Assembly: GCA_947647735.1 (NCBI GenBank) | Contig: CANSLJ010000017.1 | Location: forward strand, 1 to 64,000 | Source of the DNA: an uncultured bacterium | GTDB lineage: Bacteria > Bacillota > Clostridia > Lachnospirales > Lachnospiraceae | Reading direction: 5' to 3' | DNA length: 64,000 nucleotides | Part shown: one piece after another, positions 2,260-19,950 of the stretch | Numbering within the stretch: position 1 is the stretch's first letter | Layout: each line of letters begins with the position of its first letter | Notes under the pieces: model-generated | Seen by the model: only the letters and a program-made list of their open reading frames with translations | The model's database searches: none | What the model was told of the DNA's origin: nothing | Made by a program: the position numbers and the translations under genes

Positions 2260-2384
2260 GCAGTGCACATTCGGAAAAGCTGCGCTTTTCCTCATCGCGG
2301 GCTTCGCCCTATCAAAAAAATTAAATAAGAAGCTGTTTATGTGCAAGCACAACACATCTTCTTATTTACTTTTTTTGGCACTGC
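2260..2384. repeat. Structured intergenic element, copy A (multi-hairpin, closed by GCAGTGC/GCACTGC)
   Basis: The 125-bp element is bounded by complementary GCAGTGC (2260-2266) and GCACTGC (2378-2384). Inside, on the plus strand, are a hairpin GGAAAAGC-TGC-GCTTTTCC, a small hairpin GGGC-TTC-GCCC, the box TATCAAA, and a long AT-rich hairpin (AAATAAGAAG with CTTCTTATTT) whose apex is GTGCAAGCAC. Copy B at 13506-13631 keeps the closing stem, the GGGC/GCCC hairpin, TATCAAA and the TGCAAGCA apex, while the other stems have different but still complementary sequences. It overlaps the last codons of the upstream minus-strand gene (stop at 2366). Function is unknown. Confidence 0.8.
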
Positions 2385-3232
2385 TCATTGCCTTCGCGCA
2401 CATTATAACCATTTTCCCTCGGTGTGTCAAGATTTTGCACCAGATACAGATACTCCGACATATACTTTATATCCACCCTGCCCTCGGCTATCTGTGTTCT
2501 TCGTCCCAGATCAGACCAGAGATCCAGATAAACGCTTCCCCTCGGCAGCGCTCCCCGATCCGCCCCGCCCTCCTGCCTGTCATCCAGAACAAGCAGGCGG
2601 CTGATCCGGCAGGTGGCAAGCTCCCCTGCGCTTTTCACCGGCATCAGCGGCATCCCGTACTCATTCCAGAGATTTTCCTCCAGAATGTGATACTGTTCTC
2701 CCTTCTCGCCCAGATAAAAAAAGTAATGAAGCTTTCTGAGCAGCTTATCCTGCAAGGGCAGTTCGCCCTGCCTCTCCCGGGACTCCTCCGCCAGATACAA
2801 AATACCATCGATTCCACGAAACTGCCCTGTCAGCCTGTAGATCAGCTCCGGGCACATCCGCTGTCTGCCCGGCGTAAAACCGAATTCCAGCGCCTCCAGC
2901 TCCCGCTCAAACCCTTCCTCCAGATAATAGGCGTCCGCCGAGACATACTCACAGCAGTTCTGCATCAGCCGAAGGAGCTGTCCCGGATTCCAGGGGATCG
3001 GAAAGTTCCCCTTCCATCTCCCCAGCCCCGCCGCCCTCGCATAATACTCCGGCAGCCCGCAGAAAAACACCCTGACCGGAAAGTCCCCATCCTGTTCTCC
3101 CAAAGGCCCTTTCTCCTCGAAGGAAACATTGCCCGCCTGACGGTTTTTCCTGCCTCCTCCCATCCTTCCTGTATTTCTCTCCCTGTAAAAAGTATTCTCC
3201 CTCTTGTAAAAATAAAGTATCCGGTATCCCAC
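2366..3232 (-). CDS. Conserved-type hypothetical protein, function not recognised
   Basis: This 288-residue soluble protein has no signal peptide or membrane segment and no family that I recognise. It is rich in aromatic and charged residues and looks like a real cytoplasmic protein, with long uninterrupted coding between dus and greA. The probable start is GTG at 3232 with GGAG eight bases upstream. The first 45 residues are basic and low in complexity, so a later start is possible. The last codons (encoding EQCQKK) lie inside the structured repeat at 2260-2384, so its C-terminus appears to have been rewritten by that element. Confidence 0.6.
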   Translation of the reverse strand: MGYRILYFYKRENTFYRERNTGRMGGGRKNRQAGNVSFEEKGPLGEQDGDFPVRVFFCGLPEYYARAAGLGRWKGNFPIPWNPGQLLRLMQNCCEYVSADAYYLEEGFERELEALEFGFTPGRQRMCPELIYRLTGQFRGIDGILYLAEESRERQGELPLQDKLLRKLHYFFYLGEKGEQYHILEENLWNEYGMPLMPVKSAGELATCRISRLLVLDDRQEGGADRGALPRGSVYLDLWSDLGRRTQIAEGRVDIKYMSEYLYLVQNLDTPRENGYNVREGNEQCQKK

Positions 3233-3291
3233 AGACTCCGCTCCGGTCTATCAGCTTGTCAACATAATATATGCCGGATGCCGGAAAAGTT

Positions 3292-4257
3292 TTACTGAAA
3301 TATTTCCCGGACGCACCGCTCCAGCTCCTCCATGCTCTCCACCATGTTGATCTTTCCTCTCAGCTTTGCCGAATGAGGGAAACCCGCTGTGTACCATGAC
3401 ACATGTTTGCGCATCTCCCGGACTGCCGTATACTCTCCTTTTACTTTCAGCATCAGCGCCGCATGTTCCAGAATACACGCGCATTTTTCTTCCGCATCGG
3501 GCTTTTCAGGAATCTCCCCTGTCTCCAGATAGGAAGCGATCTCCCGGAAGATCCACGGATTTCCCCGCGCAGCCCTGCCTGCCATCACGCCATCGCACCC
3601 GGTTGCCTTCAGCATCCGCTCCGCGCTTTCCGGGCCGTCCACATCCCCGTTTCCGATCACAGGTATCTCCACCGCATCCTTCACCTTCGCAATGATATCC
3701 CAGTCCGCTCTCCCTGCATAAAACTGCTCTCTTGTCCTTCCGTGGACAACCACTGCCGACGCGCCTGCCTCCTGCGCCCGCAGCGCCAGCTCCACCGCAT
3801 TCACATGGGCTTCATCAAAGCCCTTCCGTATCTTGACCGTCACAGGCTTTCCCGACGCCCGGACAACACTGCGGATGATCTCCTCCGCCAGTTTCGGATC
3901 TTTCATCAGGGCGGAGCCTTCCCCGTTATTTACAATCTTAGGCACAGGACAGCCCATATTGATGTCCAGCACATCAAAGGGACGCTCCTGTATCTGTCCG
4001 GCTATCTCCCCCATGATCTTCGGGTCGGAACCAAACAGCTGCAGGCTGACCGGTCTCTCCTGTGGCAGGATCTGCAGCAGTTCCTCCGTATTTCTGTTTT
4101 TATACAGGATCGCCTTGGCGCTCACCATCTCCATACAGACCATTCCCGCCCCCTGCTTTTTACACAGCAAACGAAATGGCAGGTCTGTCACACCTGCCAT
4201 GGGCGCCAGAATGATGTTATTTTCCAGTGTCACATTTCCTATTCTCAGTATGCTCAT
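3292..4257 (-). CDS. dus: tRNA-dihydrouridine synthase (DusB-like)
   Basis: This FMN- and NADPH-dependent enzyme reduces specific uridines in the tRNA D-loop. At 321 residues it has the family length. An N-terminal TIM barrel carries the FMN-site motif LAPMAGVTDLPFR (about residues 17-29), the catalytic-cysteine motif MGCPVPKIVNNGEGSALMK (cysteine near residue 101) and the VVHGRTREQFYAG segment; a helical C-terminal domain follows. It lies 22 bases after the coaX stop. Its SD (AAAGGG, about 15 bases upstream) is weak and far, which suggests low or coupled translation. Confidence 0.93.
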   Translation of the reverse strand: MSILRIGNVTLENNIILAPMAGVTDLPFRLLCKKQGAGMVCMEMVSAKAILYKNRNTEELLQILPQERPVSLQLFGSDPKIMGEIAGQIQERPFDVLDINMGCPVPKIVNNGEGSALMKDPKLAEEIIRSVVRASGKPVTVKIRKGFDEAHVNAVELALRAQEAGASAVVVHGRTREQFYAGRADWDIIAKVKDAVEIPVIGNGDVDGPESAERMLKATGCDGVMAGRAARGNPWIFREIASYLETGEIPEKPDAEEKCACILEHAALMLKVKGEYTAVREMRKHVSWYTAGFPHSAKLRGKINMVESMEELERCVREIFQ

Positions 4258-4279
4258 ATCACAGCTTTACAAACCCTTT

Positions 4280-5050
4280 TCACTTCCTGTTCTTATGATA
4301 GATGATCCGCAGCCCGTCCAGTGTCAGCGTACTGTCATAAATATCGATCACATCCGTCTCCTCCGATATGATCCTTCCCAACCCGCCGGTTGCAACCACC
4401 TTCAGATCCGCCAGCCCGGTCTCCTTCCTCACCTGTCTGACGATATACTCCGTCTGCCCGATCTGTCCGTATACGATTCCCGCCTGCATGCTGCTGATGG
4501 TCTCCTGCGCCAGAATGGACTTCGGTTTTATGATCTCGATCTCCGGCAGCTTTGCCGCATCCTGCCAGAGAGCCCTTGCGGATGTCCGGATACCGGGCGC
4601 TGTGATCCCCGCCGCAAAGCAGCCGTCCGCCGTCACATAATCATAGGTCGTTGCCGTGCCGAAATCCAGCACCAGCACCGGGCCGCCGTACTTTTCATAG
4701 GCTCCCACCGCATCAACGATCCGATCGCTCCCGACCTCGTAGGGATTTGCCGTGATAACCCTGATGCCGGTTTTTACGCCGGGCCCCACGATCAGCGGCG
4801 TCAGCTTCACATACTTTGTCACCGCTCCCACCAGCGCATGCATCACATTCGGCACCACGCTGGCGATGATCGCCCCCTCAAGCTGATCCCGTCCTATCTC
4901 GTTCCGCTCCAGCATATCCACGATCTGCACGCCGTACTCATCCGAAGTATGAGGCGTCTTCGACATCATGCGAAATGTCGCACAGAGCTCCTCCCCTTTG
5001 TAAACTCCAAACGTTATATTTGTATTTCCCACGTCAATAACAAGAATCAT
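4280..5050 (-). CDS. coaX: Type III pantothenate kinase
   Basis: This enzyme phosphorylates pantothenate in the first step of coenzyme A synthesis. The 256 residues show the ASKHA-fold phosphate motifs: [12 protein letters not shown] at residues 5-16, a central GPGVKTGI and the second phosphate motif [17 protein letters not shown] near residue 125. The ATG has GGAGG eight bases upstream, and its first bases overlap the stop codon of the small gene before it (ATGA), so the two are translationally coupled. In the Bacillus/Clostridium group coaX commonly lies next to dus and birA, as here. Confidence 0.95.
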
Positions 5051-5409
5051 AGCTCGTCCTCCGTCAAGATCGCCGATATATCCTCATGCTTCACAAACAC
5101 TCTGTAATACAGATCCAGCGACTCTAAAAGCTCCTGCCTCGTATTGCGGATCTTGCTCACTAAAAGTCCGCTGGAGACCTCGTCATACAAAAAGTCGTCC
5201 TCCGCCGCTTCCGTCTCAATGGAAAGACTTCCGTCGGACTCAAACACAAAAGTGATCACACCGCCCGCTTCCTCCGTGAACAGCACGCACATGATGTGCA
5301 GCTCATCCTGAATGGACTTCGGGATCTTCTCAAACATTTTATTAAAATAATACTTCTGTTCGTAACTGCTTGCACCGCAGAGCACGATCCGCTCATTCTG
5401 CATATCCAT
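5047..5409 (-). CDS. Small conserved protein between birA and coaX (DUF6145-like)
   Basis: This roughly 120-residue soluble acidic protein has no catalytic motif that I recognise. Its middle reads as a mixed alpha/beta domain ([15 protein letters not shown]) followed by a helix. The preferred start is the ATG at 5409, with GGGGG four bases upstream; the ATG at 5403 is also possible. The start overlaps the end of birA by 17 bases and the stop overlaps the coaX start, so the three genes form a tight translational unit. It resembles a family seen in the same position in other Lachnospiraceae; that link is from memory and its role is unknown. Confidence 0.7.
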
Positions 5410-6391
5410 ACAACCCCCGCACCGAAACTTCCCCGGCATACACTTTTTTTACCGTTCCATCCTCTGTTTCCACCAGAAGATCGCCGTCCTTATCAATTCC
5501 TTTTGCCACGCCCGCATACTCGCCCTTCGGATCCAGCACTTTCACCGCCGCATCCCGATTCACAAGATGCCCGTTATATGCCTCCTGCAGCCCGGAGAGG
5601 TCCAGCGTCTGCAAAAACCTCTCATAGTTTTCTTCAAACGCCTCCATCACATACTGTACCAGCACTGCCCGGAGAATTTTTTTCTCTTTCTCCTCCGCCT
5701 CCAGATACAGACTGGTGGCAATGCCTTCCAGCTCCTCCGGAAACGCCTCATTACTGACATTGATGCCCACACCGATCACCAGATACTGTATCTCTTTGGT
5801 TTCCAGCCCCATCTCCATCTCCGTCAGTATACCACAGATCTTCTTCCCGTTCACTACCACATCGTTGGGCCATTTGATCTTTGCGGGAAGTCCTGTATAC
5901 CTGCTCACCGCCTGCGCCACGGAAAGCCCCATCACAAGCGTCAGCATCGGCGCCTTCTCCGGCGCAAAATCCGGCCTGCACAACAGAGACATATAGATGG
6001 AAATGCCCGCCGGAGACTGCCAGCTTCTGCCCCGCCTGCCTCTGCCGCTCACCTGCGCCTCCGCCACCGCCAGCGCCCCGTGAGGAGCCCCCTGCTGGGC
6101 AAGCAGCTTACAGTCTATATTGGTGGAGCCGGTTTCCTTTTTATAGGAAACTTCTCTCCCCGCCCACTTTGTGCGGATACGGCTCTGAAGCTCGTATGCC
6201 TCCATGCTGTCCGGGCTTTCCACGAGACGATAGCCCTTATTCTGCTTCGCCTCGATCACATACCCCTCATCCTTCAACTGGTTGATCATCTTCCAGATCG
6301 CAGTGCGGGAAACCTCAAAGCGATCGCATAGCTCCTGCCCCGATATATATTCTTTACTTTCCCGTAAAAGCCTTATCATCTCCGCCTTCAA
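5393..6391 (-). CDS. birA: Bifunctional biotin-protein ligase / biotin operon repressor
   Basis: BirA makes biotinyl-AMP, biotinylates carboxylase subunits and can repress biotin genes. The 332-residue long form has an N-terminal winged helix (GQELCDRFEVSRTAIWKMIN, residues 18-37), the ligase core with the adenylate loop motif GRGRRGRSWQSP (about residues 114-125), KWPNDVVVNGKKICGIL (about 170-186), and a C-terminal SH3-like domain. The start appears to be TTG at 6391 with GGAGAGG nine bases upstream; the ATG four codons later has its SD directly adjacent, which is too close. The gene follows argF by six bases and reads into the small gene before coaX. Confidence 0.95.
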   Translation of the reverse strand: MKAEMIRLLRESKEYISGQELCDRFEVSRTAIWKMINQLKDEGYVIEAKQNKGYRLVESPDSMEAYELQSRIRTKWAGREVSYKKETGSTNIDCKLLAQQGAPHGALAVAEAQVSGRGRRGRSWQSPAGISIYMSLLCRPDFAPEKAPMLTLVMGLSVAQAVSRYTGLPAKIKWPNDVVVNGKKICGILTEMEMGLETKEIQYLVIGVGINVSNEAFPEELEGIATSLYLEAEEKEKKILRAVLVQYVMEAFEENYERFLQTLDLSGLQEAYNGHLVNRDAAVKVLDPKGEYAGVAKGIDKDGDLLVETEDGTVKKVYAGEVSVRGLYGYAE

Positions 6392-6397
6392 TTGAGT

Positions 6398-7393
6398 TTA
6401 CCTCTCCATCCCAAGCGTTGCCGCCATGACCGCCTTGATCGTATGCATCCTGTTCTCCGCCTCGTCGAACACAATGGATGCCGGCGACTCAAATACCTCG
6501 TCCGTCACTTCCAGCTCCGTGAAACCGAACTTCTCTCCCTGCTGCTTTCCGACCTTTGTGTTCAGATCATGGAAGGCCGGCAGACAATGCATAAACACCG
6601 CCTTCTCCCCCGCATTTTCCATGATCTTCCGGTTCACCTGATAGGGGGACAGCTCCTTTATCCGGGATTCCCACGCCTCATCCGGCTCTCCCATGGAAAC
6701 CCACACATCCGTGTAGACCACATCCGCGCCCTCAGTGCCCTTCATCGCATCCTCCTCCAGTGTGACGCTTCCGCCTGTCTCCGCCGCGATCTTCCTGCAT
6801 TCCTCCACCAGTTCATCGGCCGGGAAAAACGCCTTTGTGGTACACGCCGTAAAGTGCATGCCCATCTTCGCACAGGCAACCATCAGGGAATTTCCCATAT
6901 TATAGCGGGCATCTCCCATATATGTCAATCTAATCCCTTTCAGATACCCGAAGTGCTCCCGGATCGTCAAAAGATCAGCCAGCATCTGCGTCGGATGAAA
7001 CTCATTGGTCAGACCGTTCCAAACCGGCACGCCGGCATGCTCCGCCAGTTCCTCCACGATATCCTGCCCGAAGCCCCGGTATTCAATACCTTCATACATC
7101 CGCCCCAGCACCCGCGCAGTATCCGCAATGCTCTCCTTCTTTCCGATCTGGGAACCTGACGGATCAAGATAGGTTGTCCCCATCCCCAGATCATGGGCTG
7201 CCACCTCAAAGGAACATCTCGTCCTTGTAGAAGTCTTTTCAAAGATCAGCGCCACATTTTTCCCCCGGAAATATTCCGTCAGTTCGCCCTTTTTCTTTTT
7301 CTCCTTAAACTCCGCCGCCAGATCCAGCAGATATGTAATCTCCTCCGGCGTATAGTCCAGTAACTTTAAAAAATGCCTTCCTTTCAGATCCAC
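6398..7393 (-). CDS. argF: Ornithine carbamoyltransferase
   Basis: The enzyme joins carbamoyl phosphate and ornithine to make citrulline. The roughly 331-residue protein shows the carbamoyl-phosphate motif STRTRCSFE (about residues 53-61), the [13 protein letters not shown] segment (about 130-142), [16 protein letters not shown], and the ornithine-binding motif HCLPAFHD near residue 268. The open frame extends 12 codons further, but the best start is GTG at 7393, with AGGAG nine bases upstream; the protein then begins [12 protein letters not shown], matching the family N-terminus. No other arginine genes are near, so an anabolic or catabolic role cannot be fixed from context. Confidence 0.95.
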
Positions 7394-7500
7394 TTCTTCC
7401 CTCTCCTTCCATCCGCAATCTTTCCACAAACGATCGACCTATGCCATGCAAAACCGCTTCCATATCTTCCTGCCGCAGGATCATATCCCTCATGAAAATT

Positions 7501-7533
7501 CCCCCGCAGGATGATCACTTTATCCTGCGGGGG
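7501..7533 (-). terminator. Strong hairpin downstream of the stomatin/NfeD pair
   Basis: CCCCGCAGGAT pairs perfectly with ATCCTGCGGGG across a nine-base loop. On the minus strand it is followed by GGAATTTTC, a short T-run. Its place about 20 bases after the stop of the stomatin-like gene fits an intrinsic terminator of that operon before argF. Confidence 0.65.
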
Positions 7534-7552
7534 GCAACATACTTTACATTTT

Positions 7553-8479
7553 TTATTTTGCCATGATCTCTTTCACGGAACTTGCCAGTCCCGCGATCCC
7601 CTGAATTTCAGACGGAATAATGATCTTTGTCGCATGTCCGTCAGCAGCTTTCGCAAATGCCTCCAGACTCTTCAACTTCAGCACCGCCTCGTCCGCGCCT
7701 GCTTCTCTGAGCATCCGGATACCGTCCGCCGTAGCCTGCTGCACTTTCATGATCGCTTCCGCCTGACCTTCCGCCTCGCGGATCATCTTCTCTTTCTGAG
7801 CTTCCGCGCGCAGGATCGCAGACTGCTTCTCAGCCTCCGCCTCCAGGATCGCCGCAGCCTTCTTACCTTCTGCCACGGTCACGCTTGCCTTCTTTTCACC
7901 TTCCGCCCTTGTCACAGCTTCACGGCGCTCACGCTCCGCCTTCATCTGACGTTCCATGGAGTTCTGGATCTCAGCGGGAGGTATGATGTTCTTTAATTCC
8001 ACACGGTTCACCTTGATACCCCAGGGATCTGTCGCTTCATCCAGGGAGGCACGCATCTTTGTGTTGATCGTCTCTCTGGAAGTAAGGGTCTGGTCAAGCT
8101 CCAGCTCACCGATGATATTACGCAGCGTAGTCGCTGTCAGGTTCTCGATCGCCATGATGGGATTTTCCACACCGTAGGTGAACAGCTTCGGATCTGTGAT
8201 CTGGAAGAACACTACCGTATCGATCCGCATCGTTACGTTATCCTTTGTGATAACAGGCTGAGGCGCAAAGTCCACCACCTGTTCCTTTAAGATCACGCGT
8301 CTTGCCACTCTGTCAAAGATAGGCATCTTGAAATGAATGCCTACGGACCATGTGCCCTGATAAGCACCCAGCCGCTCCACCACATAGGCATGCGCCTGAG
8401 GCACGATCTTGATACAGGATGCCAGCAAAACAACCACCAGGATCAAAAGAATTAAAAATACCACTGCAAATCCAATCAT
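7553..8479 (-). CDS. SPFH/Band 7 membrane protein (stomatin-like, QmcA type)
   Basis: SPFH proteins form large membrane-bound oligomers that organise membrane microdomains or modulate membrane proteases. The 308-residue protein starts with one transmembrane helix (residues 3-22), then an SPFH domain with the characteristic PQAHAYVVERLGAYQGTW and DPWGIKVNRVELKNI segments. A long Ala/Glu-rich coiled coil follows (about residues 185-270, AEGEKKASVTVAEGKKAAAI). It follows an NfeD-like gene by about 60 bases; this STOPP/NfeD pairing is widespread and implies a joint function. The RBS AAAGGAG is five to six bases before the ATG. Confidence 0.93.
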   Translation of the reverse strand: MIGFAVVFLILLILVVVLLASCIKIVPQAHAYVVERLGAYQGTWSVGIHFKMPIFDRVARRVILKEQVVDFAPQPVITKDNVTMRIDTVVFFQITDPKLFTYGVENPIMAIENLTATTLRNIIGELELDQTLTSRETINTKMRASLDEATDPWGIKVNRVELKNIIPPAEIQNSMERQMKAERERREAVTRAEGEKKASVTVAEGKKAAAILEAEAEKQSAILRAEAQKEKMIREAEGQAEAIMKVQQATADGIRMLREAGADEAVLKLKSLEAFAKAADGHATKIIIPSEIQGIAGLASSVKEIMAK

Positions 8480-8540
8480 TTTTCTTCTCCTTTTTCTTTA
8501 TATTATTTACGAAGAGCATCTGTTTTACGCTCTCTGGTTT

Positions 8541-8993
8541 CTAAAGTTTCTCCTCACGCTCCACCAGCAGTTTTACACCGTTGATCCCTCTGATGATCAC
8601 CACTTCCCCGGGCTCTATCGTCTGTCCGTCCATGATCGTCCTTGCGGTCCACTCCATACCGTTTACCGTCACCTGCCCGATCCCCTGCAGGTTGTTGATC
8701 TCACTGAGCACGATCGCCTGCCTGCCGACAAGGCTTTCCGCGTTGGTCCTCTCCCTGTCCCGGTTAAAATATTTCACCGCCACAGGCCTTGTAAAGAACA
8801 GCAGGACCGCCGAGACAATGATCATAACCAGAACCTGCAGCCAGACCGGACCGCCCAGCGCTGCCACAACGATCGCCACCAGCGCGCCGCCTGCAAACCA
8901 GATCGTTGTCAGTCCCAGCGTGAAGATTTCGATCACGATCAGCGCGACCAGGATCACAAGCCATATAACAACAGGATTTGTCATCCAATCCAT
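8541..8993 (-). CDS. NfeD-like membrane protein (short form)
   Basis: Short NfeD proteins pair with SPFH proteins in membrane domains. The 150-residue protein has hydrophobic segments at about residues 6-25, 28-50 and 52-72 and then a C-terminal OB-fold (LVGRQAIVLSEINNLQGIGQV...VIRGINGVKLLVE). The start is the ATG at 8993 with AAAGGAG eight bases upstream; the frame is open 20 codons further without an SD. It is the first gene of the NfeD-stomatin operon. The NfeD serine-protease domain of the long form is absent. Confidence 0.9.
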   Translation of the reverse strand: MDWMTNPVVIWLVILVALIVIEIFTLGLTTIWFAGGALVAIVVAALGGPVWLQVLVMIIVSAVLLFFTRPVAVKYFNRDRERTNAESLVGRQAIVLSEINNLQGIGQVTVNGMEWTARTIMDGQTIEPGEVVIIRGINGVKLLVEREEKL

Positions 8994-9110
8994 TTCATTT
9001 TCTCCTTTCCATCGAAGCATTCTCAGGAACGATATCCTCCGATATCCATACAACTGTTATTTTACACCTTTTCCGCAAAATATACAAGGGACAGATAAAA
9101 AGCCGCCATA

Positions 9111-9139
9111 AAAAAACCGCCCCGCATTATGCGGAGCGA
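9111..9139 (-). terminator. Intrinsic terminator of the SleB-like hydrolase gene
   Basis: On the minus strand CGCTCCGCA and TGCGGGGCG form a nine-pair stem with one T-G pair and a TAA loop, followed by seven T residues. It lies 25 bases after the stop codon of the hydrolase gene. Confidence 0.85.
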
Positions 9140-9162
9140 TCTCTGTCTCTCATTATTCAGTT

Positions 9163-9831
9163 TTAATAAAATACATGGCTTCCGATCACAAGGCCTTCCT
9201 TGCTGCCTGCTCTTCTGAAATGCAGTGCGCCGCCTACGTTATCGACTCCCGAGAAAGCCTGTTTTGCGGCTTCCCTGCAGGTATCCTTGATGGTATCATT
9301 CGCCAGCAGGCTTGCAAACAACTGGCTGTCCGCAGGTCCGAACTGATTCGGCTGGTAGATCACCTCTGCGATCGTATTCGGATAATTCGGAGCTTTCACC
9401 CGATTCATGATAACCGCCCCTACCGCAACCTGTCCTTCAAACTCCTGATTTCCGGCCTCGCACTGAATCATCGCCGCCATCATCCGGACTTCCTCACTCC
9501 TTGCCAGAAGCTCTGCCTTGTACGCCTCGATAAGCGCTGCATCATAACCGATAAATTCCTGATACAGGTACCCTTCCGCGCCGTTGCAGCTCACCTTTGT
9601 ATATATTTCTTCATTTTCCACCACTACTGCTATACTGTTTTTTGTGATCGGAGCAACCACTCCTTCGTTACAGTCAGGCAGTACAAAGAGCTTCGTATCT
9701 TCTGTGCAAACAATGTAACTTCCGATCTCATAACTCTGTCCGGCTTTTACATCCTGCTTGTTAACGACCATCAGCGTCAGGCACATTGCCGCGCCCAGAA
9801 CAGCCGTCAGCCATTTCTTACCGTTACACAT
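9163..9831 (-). CDS. Secreted cell-wall hydrolase, SleB/Hydrolase_2 domain
   Basis: This is likely a peptidoglycan-cleaving enzyme related to the spore-cortex lytic protein SleB. The 222-residue protein has an N-terminal signal peptide (hydrophobic about residues 8-22, then NKQDVKAG). A middle SH3-like beta region follows (about 35-95), then a C-terminal Hydrolase_2 domain with MMAAMIQCEAGNQEFEGQVA and VGAVIMNRV; the glutamate in CEAGNQ is the likely catalytic residue. The RBS AAGGAAGG precedes the ATG. Upstream is a WalR-type box (9874-9890), suggesting control by the WalKR wall-stress system rather than by sporulation sigma factors. It is monocistronic, with its own terminator at 9111-9139. 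Confidence 0.88.
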   Translation of the reverse strand: MCNGKKWLTAVLGAAMCLTLMVVNKQDVKAGQSYEIGSYIVCTEDTKLFVLPDCNEGVVAPITKNSIAVVVENEEIYTKVSCNGAEGYLYQEFIGYDAALIEAYKAELLARSEEVRMMAAMIQCEAGNQEFEGQVAVGAVIMNRVKAPNYPNTIAEVIYQPNQFGPADSQLFASLLANDTIKDTCREAAKQAFSGVDNVGGALHFRRAGSKEGLVIGSHVFY

Positions 9832-9873
9832 CTCGATATCCTTCCTTTAGATTTTAATCTTTTTTTATTAACT

Positions 9874-9899
9874 TGTTACAAATATGTTACATTTGTTAC
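9874..9899 (-). promoter_or_regulatory. WalR-type box upstream of the SleB-like hydrolase
   Basis: On the plus strand TGTTAC (9874-9879), five bases, then TGTTAC (9885-9890), with a third TGTTAC at 9894-9899. The complement reads TGTAAC-N5-TGTAAC, which matches the WalR consensus TGTWAH-N5-TGTWAH known from Bacillus and Staphylococcus. It lies 43 to 68 bases upstream of the start codon. The site is read directly; the regulator is inferred. Confidence 0.6.
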
Positions 9900-9965
9900 A
9901 ACCTTATATTAACAAATTATAAACAGATTGTCAAACTTTTAAACGATTTTTTTAAGATATCATTA

Positions 9966-10013
9966 AGAAAAAACCGGAAAAGCGCTTATTTTTGCCTTTC
10001 CGGTTCCTTTTTT
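9966..10013 (-). terminator. Intrinsic terminator of proC
   Basis: AACCGGAAAAGC pairs with GCCTTTCCGGTT, flanked by A-run and T-run on either side, so it could act on both strands. It follows the proC stop by about 25 bases and insulates the hydrolase promoter. Confidence 0.8.
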
Positions 10014-10038
10014 CTCCATCCATCCTGTCGGATTTCCG

Positions 10039-10848
10039 TCACAGTCCTCTCGATCTCTCCGCACAGGCGATCACCGCATCCATCACCGCACCGCGCATGC
10101 CGCCCTTTTCCAGTGTCCTCACACCCTGTATCGTCGTTCCCCCCGGAGAACATACCATATCCTTCAGCTCCTCCGGATGCATGCCGCTCTCCAGCACCAG
10201 TTTCGCACTGCCAAGCACCGCCTGCGCCGCAAACTCCACCGCCTGCTTTCTCGGCATCCCCTCCGCCACCGCGCCGTCCGCCAGCGCTTCGATAAACATA
10301 AACACGAAAGCTGGGGAGGAACCGCTGACACTGCCCACCGTATCCATCAGCCGCTCCGGCACCTCTATCGCTTTCCCGAAACTCGAAAACAGCTTATGGG
10401 CAAACTCTTTTTCCCCCTCACTCACCCTTTCATTCACACAGTATCCTGTACATCCCGCCAGCACCAGCGCTGGCGTATTCGGCATACACCGCACCAGCTT
10501 TATGGTTCTTTTGCCCTCAGAAGCGCCGAACTGCTCCTCTATATATTTTATGGTCTTTCCCGCCGCCACACTGATCACCAGTGTCTCTTCCTTTACCAAA
10601 TCCCTGATCTCCGCGATCACCTCCGGGAAAAACTGGGGCTTTACCGCCAGCACCAGCACATCAGCCTGCTCCGTCACTCTTCTGTTATCCGTACACGCCT
10701 CTATTCCGAATTCCGCCGCTTTTTCTTTCGCCGTTTTTTCCGTCTTTGCGGAACCTATGATATCCTGCTGCGACGCGATCCCCTCCTTTAAGATGCCGCC
10801 GATCACAGCGGATGCCATATTGCCAAGTCCGATAAATCCGAGTTTCAT
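10039..10848 (-). CDS. proC: Pyrroline-5-carboxylate reductase
   Basis: This NAD(P)H-dependent enzyme makes proline from pyrroline-5-carboxylate. The 269-residue protein starts MKLGFIGLGNMASAVIGG, a Rossmann dinucleotide motif, and has the conserved VRCMPNTPALVLAGCTGY segment near residue 120. The C-terminal dimerisation domain has SGSSPAFVFMFIEALADGAV and SPGGTTIQGVRTLE. The start at ATG 10848 has GGGAG seven bases upstream; the frame extends six codons further without support. It is a single-gene unit, divergent from the ECF sigma gene. Confidence 0.95.
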   Translation of the reverse strand: MKLGFIGLGNMASAVIGGILKEGIASQQDIIGSAKTEKTAKEKAAEFGIEACTDNRRVTEQADVLVLAVKPQFFPEVIAEIRDLVKEETLVISVAAGKTIKYIEEQFGASEGKRTIKLVRCMPNTPALVLAGCTGYCVNERVSEGEKEFAHKLFSSFGKAIEVPERLMDTVGSVSGSSPAFVFMFIEALADGAVAEGMPRKQAVEFAAQAVLGSAKLVLESGMHPEELKDMVCSPGGTTIQGVRTLEKGGMRGAVMDAVIACAERSRGL

Positions 10849-10983
10849 GTCTCTCTCCCTTCTCATTTTTCTTTCCGCACTGTCATAAAAAATATATCTT
10901 TCTTATCTTATACCTTTTTTATCCGGAATTCCATCTTTCTTTCCAAAAAACACCCGGTCTACTATAATAAAACAAAAACGATC

Positions 10984-11011
10984 TGTTACATCCCCTGAAA
11001 ACTTCCATATA
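10984..11011 (+). promoter_or_regulatory. Putative ECF-type promoter of the sigma factor gene
   Basis: TGTTACATCC (10984-10993), an 11-base spacer and CCATATA (11005-11011) recur exactly upstream of the next gene at 11570-11597. The two spacers are unrelated in sequence, so the shared boxes are likely -35 and -10 elements read by this ECF sigma factor. The start codon is 20 bases further on. Confidence 0.65.
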
Positions 11012-11030
11012 CAAAGTGGAGGGATTTACT

Positions 11031-11552
11031 ATGCAATTTGAAGAACTATGCAGAGAAAACTATGCCAGGATCTACAACTACATATTAGCCAAAACCGGAA
11101 AACGGGAGGCCGCCGAAGACATCACACAGGATGTCTTCCTGATCGCTTTCCAGAAGGGGGATGCCTTCCTCCTGCACGAAAAGCCCGTCGCCTTTTTATA
11201 TACGACCGCCAGAAATCTGGTGCTGGAATATTACAAACAGGATAAATACACCCTTGTACAGGAAACGGAACCGGAAAGATCAGATATCATTGCCTTTGAG
11301 AGGGAGCCCTACGAGGAACTCTGCCGGCAGAGATCGAACAGCATAAATGAAGAAGCCTGCCGGAAACAGGTTCTCCGGAAACTGAAACCAAAAGAGCGGG
11401 ATCTGTACCGGAAATATTACATAGACAAAAAACCAATGAAAACGATCGCCACAGAATTTCATATGAGCGAGGCGGCAGTCCGCATGAAATACGTGCGCAT
11501 CCGCAGGAAAGTACAGAAGATCGTTGCCGGCATGAATCTGGATGACTTTTAA
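11031..11552 (+). CDS. RNA polymerase sigma factor, ECF subfamily
   Basis: This alternative sigma factor has 173 residues from the ATG at 11031. Region 2 spans about residues 6-75 (FEELCRENYARIYNYILAKTG, then AAEDITQDVFLIAFQ, the DxxQ-type core-binding helix). Region 4 is in the last 60 residues (LKPKERDLYRKYYIDKKPMKTIATEFHMSEAAVRMKYVRIRRKVQ), a helix-turn-helix for -35 recognition. The start is fixed by GTGGAGGG seven bases upstream; a GTG at 11016 is part of the SD. The next gene encodes a one-pass membrane protein likely to be its cognate regulator. Identical promoter boxes before both genes suggest autoregulation. The signal is unknown. Confidence 0.92.
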   Translation: MQFEELCRENYARIYNYILAKTGKREAAEDITQDVFLIAFQKGDAFLLHEKPVAFLYTTARNLVLEYYKQDKYTLVQETEPERSDIIAFEREPYEELCRQRSNSINEEACRKQVLRKLKPKERDLYRKYYIDKKPMKTIATEFHMSEAAVRMKYVRIRRKVQKIVAGMNLDDF

Positions 11553-11569
11553 TCCCTGAAAATTTATCC

Positions 11570-11597
11570 TGTTACATCCGGCTAAAAAAGCCATATA
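11570..11597 (+). promoter_or_regulatory. Putative ECF-type promoter of the membrane partner gene
   Basis: TGTTACATCC (11570-11579), an 11-base spacer and CCATATA (11591-11597), identical in boxes and spacing to the site at 10984-11011. It lies in the 87-base gap after the sigma gene, so the partner can be induced separately from the sigma transcript. Confidence 0.65.
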
Positions 11598-11639
11598 AGG
11601 ATATAAGGTGAGCGCACACCCCCATGAAAGGAGGCACTT

Positions 11640-12647
11640 ATGAACAGTAACAATGCATTGATTACAGAACTGCATCAAAAAATAGATCACTATTTAGAAA
11701 AGGAACAATATGACAAAGCGGAGGAAGCCTGCAAAGACCTCTGCCGCATGCAGGGACTGAAACCGGCGGATCACATGCCGAAGGATTTCCTTTACCGTTT
11801 GAAGCGAAAGGAGCATGAAACCATGAATATAAAGAAACATTCCAGACGGATCTCAGGTATCGCTGCCGCAGCAGCAGTTTCCGTTTTACTGATCGGCGGA
11901 ACCGTCAGTGCCGCCGTACTCTACAACAGAGACGTCCACTTTTCCACAAAGGGACTGGTCACGGCGGAGGACATTCAGGTATCCTACACCGACGAGGAAG
12001 GAAAAACCGCCGATATCGATCTTCCCGAAATGTCCGAGGAGGACGTTACCACCCCGATCTCGGAGGAAAAAGGAACCGCCTCCACTCCCTGGCTCAGCAA
12101 AAAAGTCTGGGATGAAACCTATGCCGTATGGGATTCCGATGACGCCGTAAACTGGACTAAAGGCTATCAGACAACACGTGTTACAGAATATAAGTACGAA
12201 GACTATTTTACTGCGGCGGAAGATGCCGGATTCGATAAGATATTTGACACAAACTACACCGGAGATGTGGGCTATTACAGCAATGAATATCTGCCGGATG
12301 AATCTGATCAGGCGGCCGGCATCGGCTCCACGACAGATCACAACATCACAGGCGAGTTTTCCTGCGGGAGCGGACATTTTTCCATCGACCAGTCGAAACG
12401 CCATATAGATGAAGCCGGAGAAGTATCCGCATCTGCCACGATGGTCATTACCACGACCGGTGAAACACAGAATAAAAGAGAGTATCTGAATGCGGCGGGA
12501 ATTTCCTTTAAACTCAGCGACGATACCGAATCCGGAACTGTCAGGACAACCACGATGTTTACCGGAAACCAGTATGAAACGATCTTACAGTTTACCGGGA
12601 TGAGTGAGGAGGAGATTCATCGGGTGCTGGATGGAATACGAGGTTAG
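11640..12647 (+). CDS. Single-pass membrane protein, probable partner (anti-sigma-like) of the ECF sigma factor
   Basis: The 335-residue protein has a cytoplasmic N-terminal region (about 1-66, helical, highly charged), one transmembrane helix (about 68-92, IAAAAAVSVLLIGGTVSAAVL) and an exported C-terminal domain of about 240 residues rich in Asp, Glu, Thr and Tyr. No zinc-binding HxxxCxxC anti-sigma motif is present, so it is not a classical ZAS protein. Position, topology and shared promoter suggest that it holds or tunes the sigma factor, or is its main output. AGGAGG lies five bases before the ATG. I do not recognise the exported domain. Confidence 0.7.
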   Translation: MNSNNALITELHQKIDHYLEKEQYDKAEEACKDLCRMQGLKPADHMPKDFLYRLKRKEHETMNIKKHSRRISGIAAAAAVSVLLIGGTVSAAVLYNRDVHFSTKGLVTAEDIQVSYTDEEGKTADIDLPEMSEEDVTTPISEEKGTASTPWLSKKVWDETYAVWDSDDAVNWTKGYQTTRVTEYKYEDYFTAAEDAGFDKIFDTNYTGDVGYYSNEYLPDESDQAAGIGSTTDHNITGEFSCGSGHFSIDQSKRHIDEAGEVSASATMVITTTGETQNKREYLNAAGISFKLSDDTESGTVRTTTMFTGNQYETILQFTGMSEEEIHRVLDGIRG

Positions 12648-12651
12648 GCTT

Positions 12652-12682
12652 AAAAACGAGGGCGTGACTGCCCTCGTTTTTT
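12652..12682. terminator. Bidirectional intrinsic terminator between convergent genes
   Basis: AAAAACGAGGGC, a six-base loop and GCCCTCGTTTTTT. The A-run and T-run on opposite sides allow it to end both the ECF unit (plus) and the RNA methyltransferase gene (minus), which ends 13 bases away. Confidence 0.9.
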
Positions 12683-12694
12683 ACTCTTGCTCCT

Positions 12695-13486
12695 TCATTC
12701 TAAGTGAAAATCTCTCCTCTGCCTCGCCGCTTCATAGACAAGCAGTGCTGCGGATACAGCAGCATTCAGGCTTTCCAGTTCCCCCGCCATCGGGATGCGG
12801 ATCCTGACATCAGCCGCCGTCGCAGTTTCTCTGGTTAAACCGTTTCCTTCGTTTCCTATCAGGAAAGCACTGGGATTCCGGTAATTTTCGCTATCGTAAC
12901 ATTCGGAACCCTCCAGATAAGCCGCATATACTTTTATATTTCTGCCCTGCAGGAACCTGATCTCTTTCTGCAGATCATCGGTCCGGTAAAAAGGGACACG
13001 GAACAGGCTTCCCATGGTGGAACGTACCACTTTCGGCTGATAGATGTCCGCACAATCAGGGCTCAGGATCACACCCGTGACGCCCGCTCCCTCCGCAGTC
13101 CGCATGATCGTCCCGAGGTTGCCGGGATCCTGAATATTTTCCAGAAGCAGCAGTAACGGGGATGTCCCAAGCAAATCCTCCCTTTCATATTTCTGCTGTG
13201 TGAGGACCGCCAGAATTCCCTGCGGAGCTTTCGTATCTGACATCTTTCCGAAAACCTGCTCCGAGACCGTTTCATAACCTGTCCGGACAAGTTTTTCTTT
13301 CATCTCTCTGTCGGCATTTTCCAGAAAACGCTCCGTGGCATAGACTTCCCTCACCATAGAATCCGGCGTCTCCCAAAAGAGCCTGCCGCCTTCTATGACG
13401 AACAGACTCTCCTCCCTGCGCAGCCTTGCTTTCTGCTGCAGGGCTGCCACATGTTTGATTTTATCGTTTGCTGCGCTTGTGATCAT
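12695..13486 (-). CDS. SpoU/TrmH-family RNA 2'-O-methyltransferase
   Basis: A SAM-dependent SPOUT enzyme that methylates ribose in rRNA or tRNA. The 263-residue protein has an N-terminal L30e-like substrate-binding domain (about 1-95, starting MITSAANDKIKHVAALQ) and the C-terminal knotted domain. The latter shows motif 1 (LLLENIQDPGNLGTIMRTAEG), motif 2 (FLIGNEGNGL) and motif 3 (RIPMAGELESLNAAVSAALL). The start at ATG 13486 has GGAGAG five bases upstream. The exact target (such as 23S rRNA) cannot be told from sequence. The structured repeat 13506-13631 lies just upstream, between it and pfkA. Confidence 0.92.
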   Translation of the reverse strand: MITSAANDKIKHVAALQQKARLRREESLFVIEGGRLFWETPDSMVREVYATERFLENADREMKEKLVRTGYETVSEQVFGKMSDTKAPQGILAVLTQQKYEREDLLGTSPLLLLLENIQDPGNLGTIMRTAEGAGVTGVILSPDCADIYQPKVVRSTMGSLFRVPFYRTDDLQKEIRFLQGRNIKVYAAYLEGSECYDSENYRNPSAFLIGNEGNGLTRETATAADVRIRIPMAGELESLNAAVSAALLVYEAARQRRDFHLE

Positions 13487-13505
13487 ACACTCTCTCCATA
13501 TATTT

Positions 13506-13631
13506 GCAGTGCTCATCCGAAGAACCTGCGGTCCTTCGGATGTACGGGCTGCGCCCTATCAAAGATATCAAAAGCAGATTTTCTTACATGCAAGCATGAC
13601 GAAAATCTGCTTTCGATATCTTTGGCACTGC
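13506..13631. repeat. Structured intergenic element, copy B (multi-hairpin, closed by GCAGTGC/GCACTGC)
   Basis: The 126-bp element has the same plan as 2260-2384. It has GCAGTGC (13506-13512) with GCACTGC (13625-13631), hairpin CATCCGAAGAACC-TGC-GGTCCTTCGGATG (one mismatch), hairpin GGGC-TGC-GCCC, box TATCAAA, then a long stem AAAGATATC with GATATCTTT and AAAGCAGATTTTC with GAAAATCTGCTTT, capped by CATGCAAGCATG. It begins directly after the pfkA stop codon and ends 20 bases before the methyltransferase start. Flanking bases (ATAT..TTTGCAGTGC) also agree with copy A. Confidence 0.8.
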
Positions 13632-14600
13632 TTAAAGCCTACCGCTCACGTCATAAATATACTGAGGAATCTCCTTCTGCATCTGCAGCGCTTCTTCGAT
13701 ATCGTAATCCTTAAACTCTCCTCTCTGATAAGCCACTACCCTGTTGGACTTTCCTTCACAGAGAATATCCGCCGCATAGGCACCCATAACAGATGCGTAT
13801 ACTCTGTCCTTACAGGTGGGGGAACCGCCCCTCTGCATGTAGCCCAGGATCGTTGCCCTTGTCTCAATGCCGGTAGCCGCCTCGATCCTTCTCGCCATGG
13901 AGGTTGAGTGCCCGATTCCTTCCGCATTGATGATAATATGATGTGTCTTGCCGTGCTTTCTGTTATTGATGATATTATTGATGATGCGCTGTTCATTGTA
14001 ATCATATTTTTCCGGGATCAGAATATCTTCCGCACCGTTGGCGATACCACACCAGAGCGCGATATAACCGGCATTCCTGCCCATAACCTCAATGATACTG
14101 CAGCGCTCATGGGAAGAGGAGGTATCTCTCACCTTATCGATCGCCTGCATCGCCGTATTGATCGCCGTGTCAAAGCCGATCGTGTAATCCGTACAGGCAA
14201 TATCCAGATCGATGGTTCCCGGTATGCCCACCGTATTGATCCCATGACGTGCAAGCGCCTGTGCTCCCCGGTAGGAACCGTCCCCGCCGATCACCACCAG
14301 ACCGTCGATCCCGTGTTTTTCACAGATCTCCGCGCCTTTTGCCTGCCCTTCCTCATATTTAAAATCAGTACAACGGGCTGTCCCCAGGATCGTACCGCCG
14401 CGCTGGATCGTATCAGATACACTGGACCTTTCCAGATCTATGATCTCCTCATTCAAAAGCCCCTGATACCCTTTTTTAATACCCTTAACTTTCACACCAT
14501 TACTAATTGCTTTCCTCACCACCGCGCGAATCGCGGCATTCATCCCCGGCGCATCCCCGCCGCTGGTCAACACCCCTATCGTCTTAATCTCCTTCGACAT
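13632..14600 (-). CDS. pfkA: ATP-dependent 6-phosphofructokinase
   Basis: This is the committed step of glycolysis, fructose 6-phosphate to fructose 1,6-bisphosphate. The 322-residue protein starts MSKEIKTIGVLTSGGDAPGM and has the ATP-site GGDGSYRGA (near residue 100), the catalytic TIDLDIACTDYTIGFDTA segment (near 125-142) with the key Asp, and the fructose 6-phosphate segments ERCSIIEVMGR and GYMQRGGSPT. The Gly in GGDGS is the type associated with ATP, not pyrophosphate, use. The start at ATG 14600 has GGGAGG nine bases upstream; the frame is open 37 codons further but without an SD. It lies downstream of dnaE, separated by a large palindrome. Confidence 0.96.
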   Translation of the reverse strand: MSKEIKTIGVLTSGGDAPGMNAAIRAVVRKAISNGVKVKGIKKGYQGLLNEEIIDLERSSVSDTIQRGGTILGTARCTDFKYEEGQAKGAEICEKHGIDGLVVIGGDGSYRGAQALARHGINTVGIPGTIDLDIACTDYTIGFDTAINTAMQAIDKVRDTSSSHERCSIIEVMGRNAGYIALWCGIANGAEDILIPEKYDYNEQRIINNIINNRKHGKTHHIIINAEGIGHSTSMARRIEAATGIETRATILGYMQRGGSPTCKDRVYASVMGAYAADILCEGKSNRVVAYQRGEFKDYDIEEALQMQKEIPQYIYDVSGRL

Positions 14601-14820
14601 ACGAGCAATCCTCCCGTCCCTGACCGCATTCTTAACAGTCAGCTTTTTATCTGATGCTTTTTTATCATAATCTATTTCTTCCACATTTTCAAGTATTCTT
14701 GTCTTAGTCATTGTAACTATTCAACCTTCGGATTCCTTTAAACCAAAACACTTTCTTACAGACCTTGCTGCAAGCATAAAGTCCTGAACTGAACTGTTAC
14801 CAGTCGTTGCCACAACCTGA

Positions 14821-19804: not shown

Positions 19805-19950
19805 AAAAAAACCGCTTCGACAATGAAGCGGACCTAAGTATTCACTCAAATCCTCTTATTGTTCGATGATTCGCTCAGGTTGGCACCTTCCGTCTCCGGG
19901 GTTGCCGTGGCTTCACAGGTCCTATGTACCTCCACCACTCTGAATAAGAG
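19805..19950 (-). promoter_or_regulatory. SAM-I (S-box) riboswitch with terminator, controlling metK
   Basis: On the minus strand P1 is formed by CTCTTATT (from 19950) and AATAAGAG (about 19853-19860). The core has the hallmark GAAGCCACGGCAACC and AAGGTGCCAACCTGAGCGA blocks of S-box RNAs. It is followed by an intrinsic terminator CCGCTTC-ATTGTC-GAAGCGG plus seven T residues (19805-19831). SAM binding stabilises the aptamer and lets the terminator form, lowering metK expression. Confidence 0.93.

Follow-up and report, generated by a model that had tools for sequence, protein, structure and literature searches.

Two intergenic stretches of similar plan lie within the 64,000-nucleotide piece of an uncultured Lachnospiraceae genome analysed here (contig CANSLJ010000017.1, positions 1 to 64,000 of the forward strand, assembly GCA_947647735.1; hereafter the window, and its genome the host), and they raise the question of what a folded repeat placed beside unrelated genes might do. 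The initial annotation of the window had proposed a new structured repeat family, acting perhaps as a cis-acting RNA, as a processing or 3′-end element, or as a palindromic mobile element copied by a transposase in trans. We find that both copies belong to a dispersed family with covarying helices, and that this family is a new variant of the unexplained Clostridiales-1-like RNA (Rfam RF01699). Among the options first offered, a cis-acting RNA is the best supported, since the copies mostly run in the direction of the next gene and adjoin a promoter or a stop codon in 43 of 71 cases. We tentatively propose, giving it somewhat less than an even chance, that this dispersed three-hairpin element acts in cis as a portable leader or junction structure of mRNA and would shield the message from ribonucleases.

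A shared fold supported by covariation

On the minus strand, the proposed RNA strand, both copies follow one plan: a 7-bp closing stem surrounds three hairpins, namely a long one with the apex UGCUUGCA, a short GGGC-GNA-GCCC one and a third. The predicted energies are −52.0 kcal/mol for copy 1 and −77.0 kcal/mol for copy 2, against shuffle means of −28.9 and −31.5 (z-scores −7.35 and −12.64), while the plus strand folds at −50.1 (z −8.45) and −67.0 kcal/mol (z −10.90); none of 200 shuffles was as good in any of these four cases. The minus strand is thus the lower-energy strand for both copies, by a small margin in copy 1, and it is also the strand of the flanking genes. The pattern GGGCTNCGCCCTATCAAA, with at most 3 mismatches, occurs twice in the window where 0.11 occurrences are expected, a number equalled by one of 100 shuffles. 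Our coordinates, the lengths of 125 and 126 bp, the GCAGTGC/GCACTGC closing stems, the GGGC/GCCC hairpin, the TATCAAA box and the TGCAAGCA apex agree with the initial annotation.

That annotation had also read the differences between the two copies as compensatory change. As paralogues with unrelated stems, the copies show that each is paired and nothing further; the compensatory changes come from orthologues and from an alignment of 34 sequences made with MAFFT (A2). Across the 30 pairs scored there, namely those of the closing stem, the outer long hairpin and the GGGC hairpin, 90.4% of cells are paired and 25 pairs have changed on both sides. The covariation score of 0.537 was reached by none of 500 shuffles, which averaged 0.157, and sliding the partners by 1 to 3 columns gave at most 0.147. 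Because the rows were chosen by the box ATAGGGCGNAGCCC or a near variant, helix 3 (the GGGC hairpin) is invariant in 34/34 by selection; the closing stems were found via complementarity, making helix 1 partly circular, and helix 2 is anchored at the box and the closing stem. Purine–purine mismatches are frequent at given columns of A2, where they persist uncorrected. We also compared six orthologous sites from the genus, with 16 sequences in all; the sites are those that we recognised, and their structures were predicted from these sequences themselves. Compensation on both sides accounts for 44 varying pairs, a change to or from G-U for 12, and a break in one sequence or more for 17.

The box search behind A2 gave 49 matches, 34 of which entered the alignment. 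Those omitted were seven matches that were the second or third copy at their locus, L092, L009 and L032 (stem mis-assigned or no element), L039 (end mis-assigned), L010, L034 and L036 (poor ends), and L007, which the script missed.

Further copies in the host and across the order

The proposal of a structured repeat family is supported, in that covariation exceeds the shuffled and slid controls and further copies exist in the host genome and its relatives. The outcomes that the initial annotation had named as refuting it thus did not, on the whole, occur. A covariance model built from 34 sequences, four of them from the host (R1), yields eight host matches at E ≤0.01: six at E <1e-8, of which four are training sequences, and two weak ones, including C5:17467, which lies inside an open reading frame (ORF) on the opposite strand. 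The host genome has four occurrences of the box by itself; with at most 2 mismatches the box is present in 50 of the 299 genomes of the family, and the reversed control pattern gave single matches in nine. R1 matches all nine genomes of the genus, with 22 matches in G007, and, at E ≤1e-4 and with stricter filters, 39 of 196 genomes of the order, in 26 of 102 genera and seven families. Among 80 loci around an SPFH gene, two (L220 and L193) hold R1 copies at E <1e-6. Two copies in G007 (L308 and L309) are 97% alike and have unrelated flanks, so copies disperse.

Some members of the family are degraded. One host locus (L024, C22:47210) has lost the hairpins but retains a promoter-like box and half of the closing stem, the first; it lies in front of an ORF that resembles, by eye, a signal-peptide ORF, and perhaps arose when a short TGC repeat led to a deletion. 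At L020, L039, L047 and L352 (G487) copies are partial or arranged in tandem, with a period of about 60-140 bp.

Placement relative to genes

Direction was scored from gene calls that rest on open-frame length, leaving out flanks without a clear call. The downstream gene is co-directional with the element in 28 of the 28 cases called among 38 box-selected loci, and in 48 of 54 called among a larger set of 71 loci that includes orthologues (3′ ends approximate for L002, L006, L034 and L036). In this larger set two classes of position stand out. A TATAAT-like hexamer lies exactly 23 nt before the closing stem in 28/71 copies (at most one mismatch; 25 exact), the next-best offset giving 5; 15 of these 28 also have a −35 match of at least 4/6 at a spacing of 16-18 nt, as against 11% at control positions. 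In another 15 of the 71, the element starts at −12 to +25 nt from an upstream stop codon, and no copy falls in both classes (Fisher p 2e-4). Copy 1 stands behind a complete promoter sequence (Table 1), where the shuffled greA promoter region contains a mean of 0.7 promoter-like sites scoring at least 9/12, and the greA message is predicted to start about 10 nt before the element. The last codons of the ORF that ends inside copy 1 also run through that promoter, and pfkA stops directly before copy 2, a gene context that agrees with the initial annotation.

In 59/71 cases an ORF start bearing a Shine-Dalgarno-like site lies no more than about 350 nt downstream, at a median distance of 82 nt. For 20 of the downstream proteins we searched Pfam, and 19 had a match at E ≤1e-10, representing 18 different kinds, among them GreA, SpoU, Sua5, AraC, LacI, RNase_PH (PNPase-like), SHMT, DHDPS and ETF. 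These 20 proteins share no pathway, and such mixed company argues against a ligand-specific riboswitch, which we rejected.

Two other familiar leader functions were rejected. As a leader peptide, the ATG found 4 nt before the closing stem in 51/71 copies opens frames that scatter from 4 to 414 codons, 40 of them ending inside the element, so that no conserved leader ORF emerges. As a terminator or attenuator, the element lacks the T run: none of the 71 copies has at least 6 T in the 10 nt that follow it, and the runs of at least 6 T present in 12/71 lie within a paired arm. Neither window copy carries an intrinsic terminator (a G+C-rich hairpin with a T run).

Relation to Clostridiales-1

Whether the family is new, as first claimed, has a two-sided answer. 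The window copies score 34.0 and 36.4 bits with RF01699, below its gathering cut-off of 48, and a scan of the whole window gave no match at the cut-off; both copies nevertheless align over model positions 1-166. The orthologue of copy 2 in G007 reaches 50.8 bits and so passes, several other relatives match weakly (at most 45.8 bits), and no element reached a gathering score of Rfam in 20 scanned loci of the 29 newly found in the order-wide R1 search. The reverse comparison of R1 with 55 RF01699-type loci is weak as well: the best match, L137, has an E of 2.1e-5 and is itself under the RF01699 cut-off, and the best among loci above that cut-off is L099, at E 0.0017. On these scores we treat the window type as a sister family of RF01699 rather than a formal member; it falls below the Rfam cut-off in nearly all scanned loci, the G007 orthologue being the exception.

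The two families share a full-length alignment on the same strand, the closing stem, the long hairpin with its UGCUUGCA apex and further hairpins, and in both most copies point the same way as the next gene and many lie at stop codons. They differ in the middle hairpin, which spans about 50 nt in Clostridiales-1 and is the 11-nt GGGC-GNA-GCCC hairpin in the window type, and in the −10 hexamer that many window-type copies have at a fixed spot. The long middle hairpin of Clostridiales-1, with its UGAG...GCGAAU motif, is mostly deleted or skipped in the alignments of the window copies, where the 11-nt GGGC hairpin stands in its place; a UGAG/CGAA motif is located in hairpin 3 of copy 1, whose AUGAG/CGAAU flanks may form tandem G-A pairs.

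RF01699 itself is above its cut-off in 11 of 31 genomes, and 14 control genomes gave one match, none above the cut-off. Among the 78 RF01699-type loci fetched from the genome-wide match list, the downstream gene is co-directional in 45/54 called, and of the 38 upstream genes that run the same way as the element, 30 have their stop at −3 to +20 nt from it. Rfam types the family as Gene; sRNA, of unknown function, and its table row in Weinberg et al. 2010 (PMC2864571) reads 'probably RNA' and 'probably not cis-regulatory' ('cis-reg: n'). The name Clostridiales-1 also occurs in PMC3466250 and PMC7302867, and our literature search found no functional study of it after 2010, nor one of the window-type family. 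The direction of both families and their placement at stop codons and promoters make the Clostridiales-1-like RNA a testable cis-acting mRNA element.

Signs of mobility

The suggestion of a mobile palindrome copied in trans fits the RF01699-type relatives better than the window copies. Perfect 5-bp target duplications flank 13 of the 21 RF01699-type copies that have a recognisable right end, where 2000 offset controls give at most 2, and the mean end match is 4.38/5 as against 2.78 (maximum 3.57) with randomly paired ends. These copies look like miniature transposons. RF01699 copies in G010, G011 and G016 (e.g. L079-L088, L109-L118, L131-L134) have terminal inverted repeats of the TGATRCCAGGGTCAAAAG type, and several contigs of these genomes end in such copies. 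RF01699 matches number 46 in G011 and 33 in G010 (E ≤0.1). At 12 end-bearing RF01699-type loci, from eight genomes searched for ends, no transposase was recognised in the ORF listing, which involved no family search.

For the window type, an offset scan of 48 copies gave no clear signal of target duplication, and aligning own against other flanks in 28 promoter-type copies gave a value matched or exceeded in 231 of 5000 permutations. A single 14-nt direct repeat is present at L308. The inverted ends of the window copies are just the 7-bp closing stem, and at least 5/8 further complementary bases are found in 8/71 copies.

Could the family, then, be a selfish, non-autonomous mobile element whose fold aids spread or renders insertions harmless, its direction bias arising as harmful insertions are purged? 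The target duplications and inverted repeats of the RF01699 type, its numbers per genome, the nearly identical pair in G007 and the tandem copies would all suit such an account, but it leaves unexplained why orthologous copies keep their pairing across species divergence and why the spacing to the −10 hexamer is fixed. The window type gave no clear duplication signal, and the inspected RF01699-type ends no transposase. We consider this reading unlikely. Bacterial miniature inverted-repeat transposable elements are likewise dispersed, short and non-coding with palindromic ends, and the RF01699 type has terminal inverted repeats and 5-bp target duplications in common with them; they differ from the window-type family in its conserved internal fold, direction bias and promoter-spaced position. 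Repetitive extragenic palindromic (REP) sequences and bacterial interspersed mosaic elements (BIMEs) are repeated extragenic hairpins, at times in tandem; the window-type fold is much larger, with three hairpins and a closing stem, and has a direction bias.

Judging by the RF01699 target duplications, a family of structured RNAs may spread by mobility, its copies being retained in untranslated regions of genes that are unrelated. A broader reading, possible in our view though rather doubtful, would unite RF01699 and its window-type sister, throughout the order, in a single lineage of mobile elements with an RNA core, which spread as miniature transposons, settle along the reading direction directly behind promoters or stop codons, and are then kept as a standard, interchangeable mRNA leader. 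If this were true, one selfish RNA fold would have been wired into the messages of many housekeeping genes.

A possible protective mRNA structure and its alternatives

Returning to the proposal that the element protects its message, we envisage that it would be transcribed as an untranslated part of the mRNA, and that its closed fold of several hairpins, lying close to the predicted 5′ end or immediately after a stop codon, would block the entry of exonucleases, so that the attached cistron would live longer. The long hairpin may in addition be cut by RNase III. The copies appear to have been dispersed as non-autonomous relatives of the Clostridiales-1 lineage and afterwards retained at particular genes. 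Protection is suggested by analogy with structured 5′ leaders that stabilise mRNA in Bacillus (PMC3997798). The likeness to these Bacillus stabilisers (leaders of the ermC and aprE type) lies in a structure near the predicted 5′ end of the message, with a presumably similar action; they are gene-specific leaders, whereas the window type is a dispersed family with one shared fold.

The strand on which the element folds best lends modest support to an RNA. The gene-sense strand is lower in energy in 65/71 window-type copies, with a mean difference of −7.7 kcal/mol and 135 G-U pairs as against 71 on the other strand, and in 64/69 RF01699-type copies. With 60 dinucleotide shuffles of each strand as the reference, this advantage shrinks considerably, sense having the lower z-score in 47/71 window-type copies (median −7.3 vs −6.3, p 0.0014). 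The energy difference is therefore partly a matter of base composition, and we have lowered the weight of the protective reading and raised that of template switching (below) on this account.

Several observations weigh against protection. The sense z-score is lower in just 39/69 RF01699-type copies (p 0.027) and in 35/56 window-type copies once the listed orthologues are removed, and that of copy 1 is better on the plus strand (−8.45 vs −7.35). The 71 loci include orthologues and are not independent; 28 of them belong to neither the −10 nor the stop class, six run antisense to every flanking gene that was called, and for seven there is no called flank. Six of the 54 called downstream genes run the opposite way, and three groups of copies follow a gene whose next gene is oppositely directed, so that a 5′ leader does not fit every copy. 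Copies behind the stop codon of groEL illustrate this: L304 (host C25:46795-46933) and L313 (G007), both with Pfam Cpn60_TCP1, and L319 (G001), judged by its similar end, have a reversed next gene in two of the three cases. The element is also dispensable at both window sites, as a check of the empty sites in the nine genus genomes, proposed with the initial annotation, makes clear. Four genomes have it at the greA site, namely G000, G003, G007 and, with extra sequence, G006, but G001, G005, G008, G002 and G004 have no element or a remnant, the greA promoter being kept at the empty sites of G001, G005 and G008. At the pfkA site, G000 and G007 (in tandem) carry the element, G006 has a remnant and the six other genomes lack it. 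Finally, the recurrence of the GGGC hairpin points to a specific partner more than to a generic barrier.

Cutting of the long hairpin by RNase III, which would separate cistrons and set their stability, is a close rival to protection, and one to which we would give a minor share of the probability. It accords with the length of many long hairpins, about two helical turns or more, and with the copies directly behind stop codons, a position that the RF01699 type takes behind most of its co-directional upstream genes. Such a processing site, however, leaves the closing stem and the recurring GGGC hairpin unexplained, and copies right behind a promoter separate no cistrons.

Less probable still are neutral palindromes, the pairing of which would be kept by template switching during replication rather than by selection on RNA. 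Hairpins can arise through template switching and be maintained by it, compensatory changes included, and the authors of PMC8794818 state that it also explains why base-pair frequencies in stems are asymmetric. The weak strand preference that remains after controlling for composition would suit this account, as would L365 (element minus 1501-1640; tRNA 1641-1713), where the closing stem reaches into the 3′ end of the tRNA gene and forms a perfect inverted repeat of 23 bp. It does not predict the placement at promoters and stop codons or the direction bias, and it sits poorly with purine–purine mismatches kept at given columns and with the recurrence of the GGGC hairpin and apex sequences.

The far arm at L365 looks as if copied from the flank. 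Another copy with extended inverted ends, L359, folds and lies directly behind a tRNA gene, and L281 likewise lies, by eye, behind a tRNA-like sequence.

A free-standing, trans-acting small RNA, as which Rfam types RF01699 and as the 2010 paper judged it, would agree with the fixed distance of the −10 hexamer in 28/71 copies, but is highly improbable given that no copy is followed by a terminator, that 59/71 precede an ORF start with a Shine-Dalgarno-like site and that 15/71 begin near an upstream stop codon.

Features of the window

The coordinates of the two elements, their parts and the flanking genes are collected in Table 1. The rRNA methylase gene probably starts at 13489, judging from a Shine-Dalgarno-like GGAGAG.

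Table 1. The two elements and their surroundings, in window positions
Feature	Positions	Strand	Remarks
greA, downstream gene of copy 1	1736-2221	minus	Pfam GreA_GreB
Copy 1, whole element	2260-2384	minus (proposed RNA strand)	between promoter and greA; 125 bp; R1 match 2255-2392, 126.8 bits (R1 training sequence)
Copy 1, closing stem 3′ arm GCACTGC	2260-2266	minus	fold
Copy 1, third hairpin	2267-2298	minus	AUGAG/CGAAU flanks; sequence and fold
Copy 1, GGGC-GAA-GCCC hairpin	2299-2309	minus	fold and pattern search
Copy 1, long hairpin	2313-2377	minus	apex UGCUUGCA at 2342-2349; fold; same helix covaries among relatives
Copy 1, closing stem 5′ arm GCAGTGC	2378-2384	minus	fold
ORF of 288 aa	2366-3232	minus	no Pfam match; last codons inside copy 1 and greA promoter
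Sigma-70-type promoter TTGACA-17-TATAAT	2402-2430	minus	12/12 matches; in front of copy 1
SpoU-type rRNA methylase, downstream gene of copy 2	12695-13489	minus	Pfam SpoU_methylase
Copy 2, whole element	13506-13631	minus	between pfkA and rRNA-methylase gene; 126 bp; R1 match 13501-13639, 116.6 bits (R1 training sequence)
Copy 2, closing stem 3′ arm	13506-13512	minus	fold
Copy 2, third hairpin, 13 bp	13514-13542	minus	fold
Copy 2, GGGC-GCA-GCCC hairpin	13546-13556	minus	fold and pattern search
Copy 2, long hairpin	13560-13624	minus	fold
Copy 2, closing stem 5′ arm	13625-13631	minus	fold
pfkA, upstream gene of copy 2	13632-14711	minus	Pfam PFK; stop codon abuts copy 2

Elsewhere in the window, an ordinary S-adenosylmethionine (SAM) riboswitch (RF00162) lies at 19853-19950 on the minus strand, with a score of 73.2 bits.

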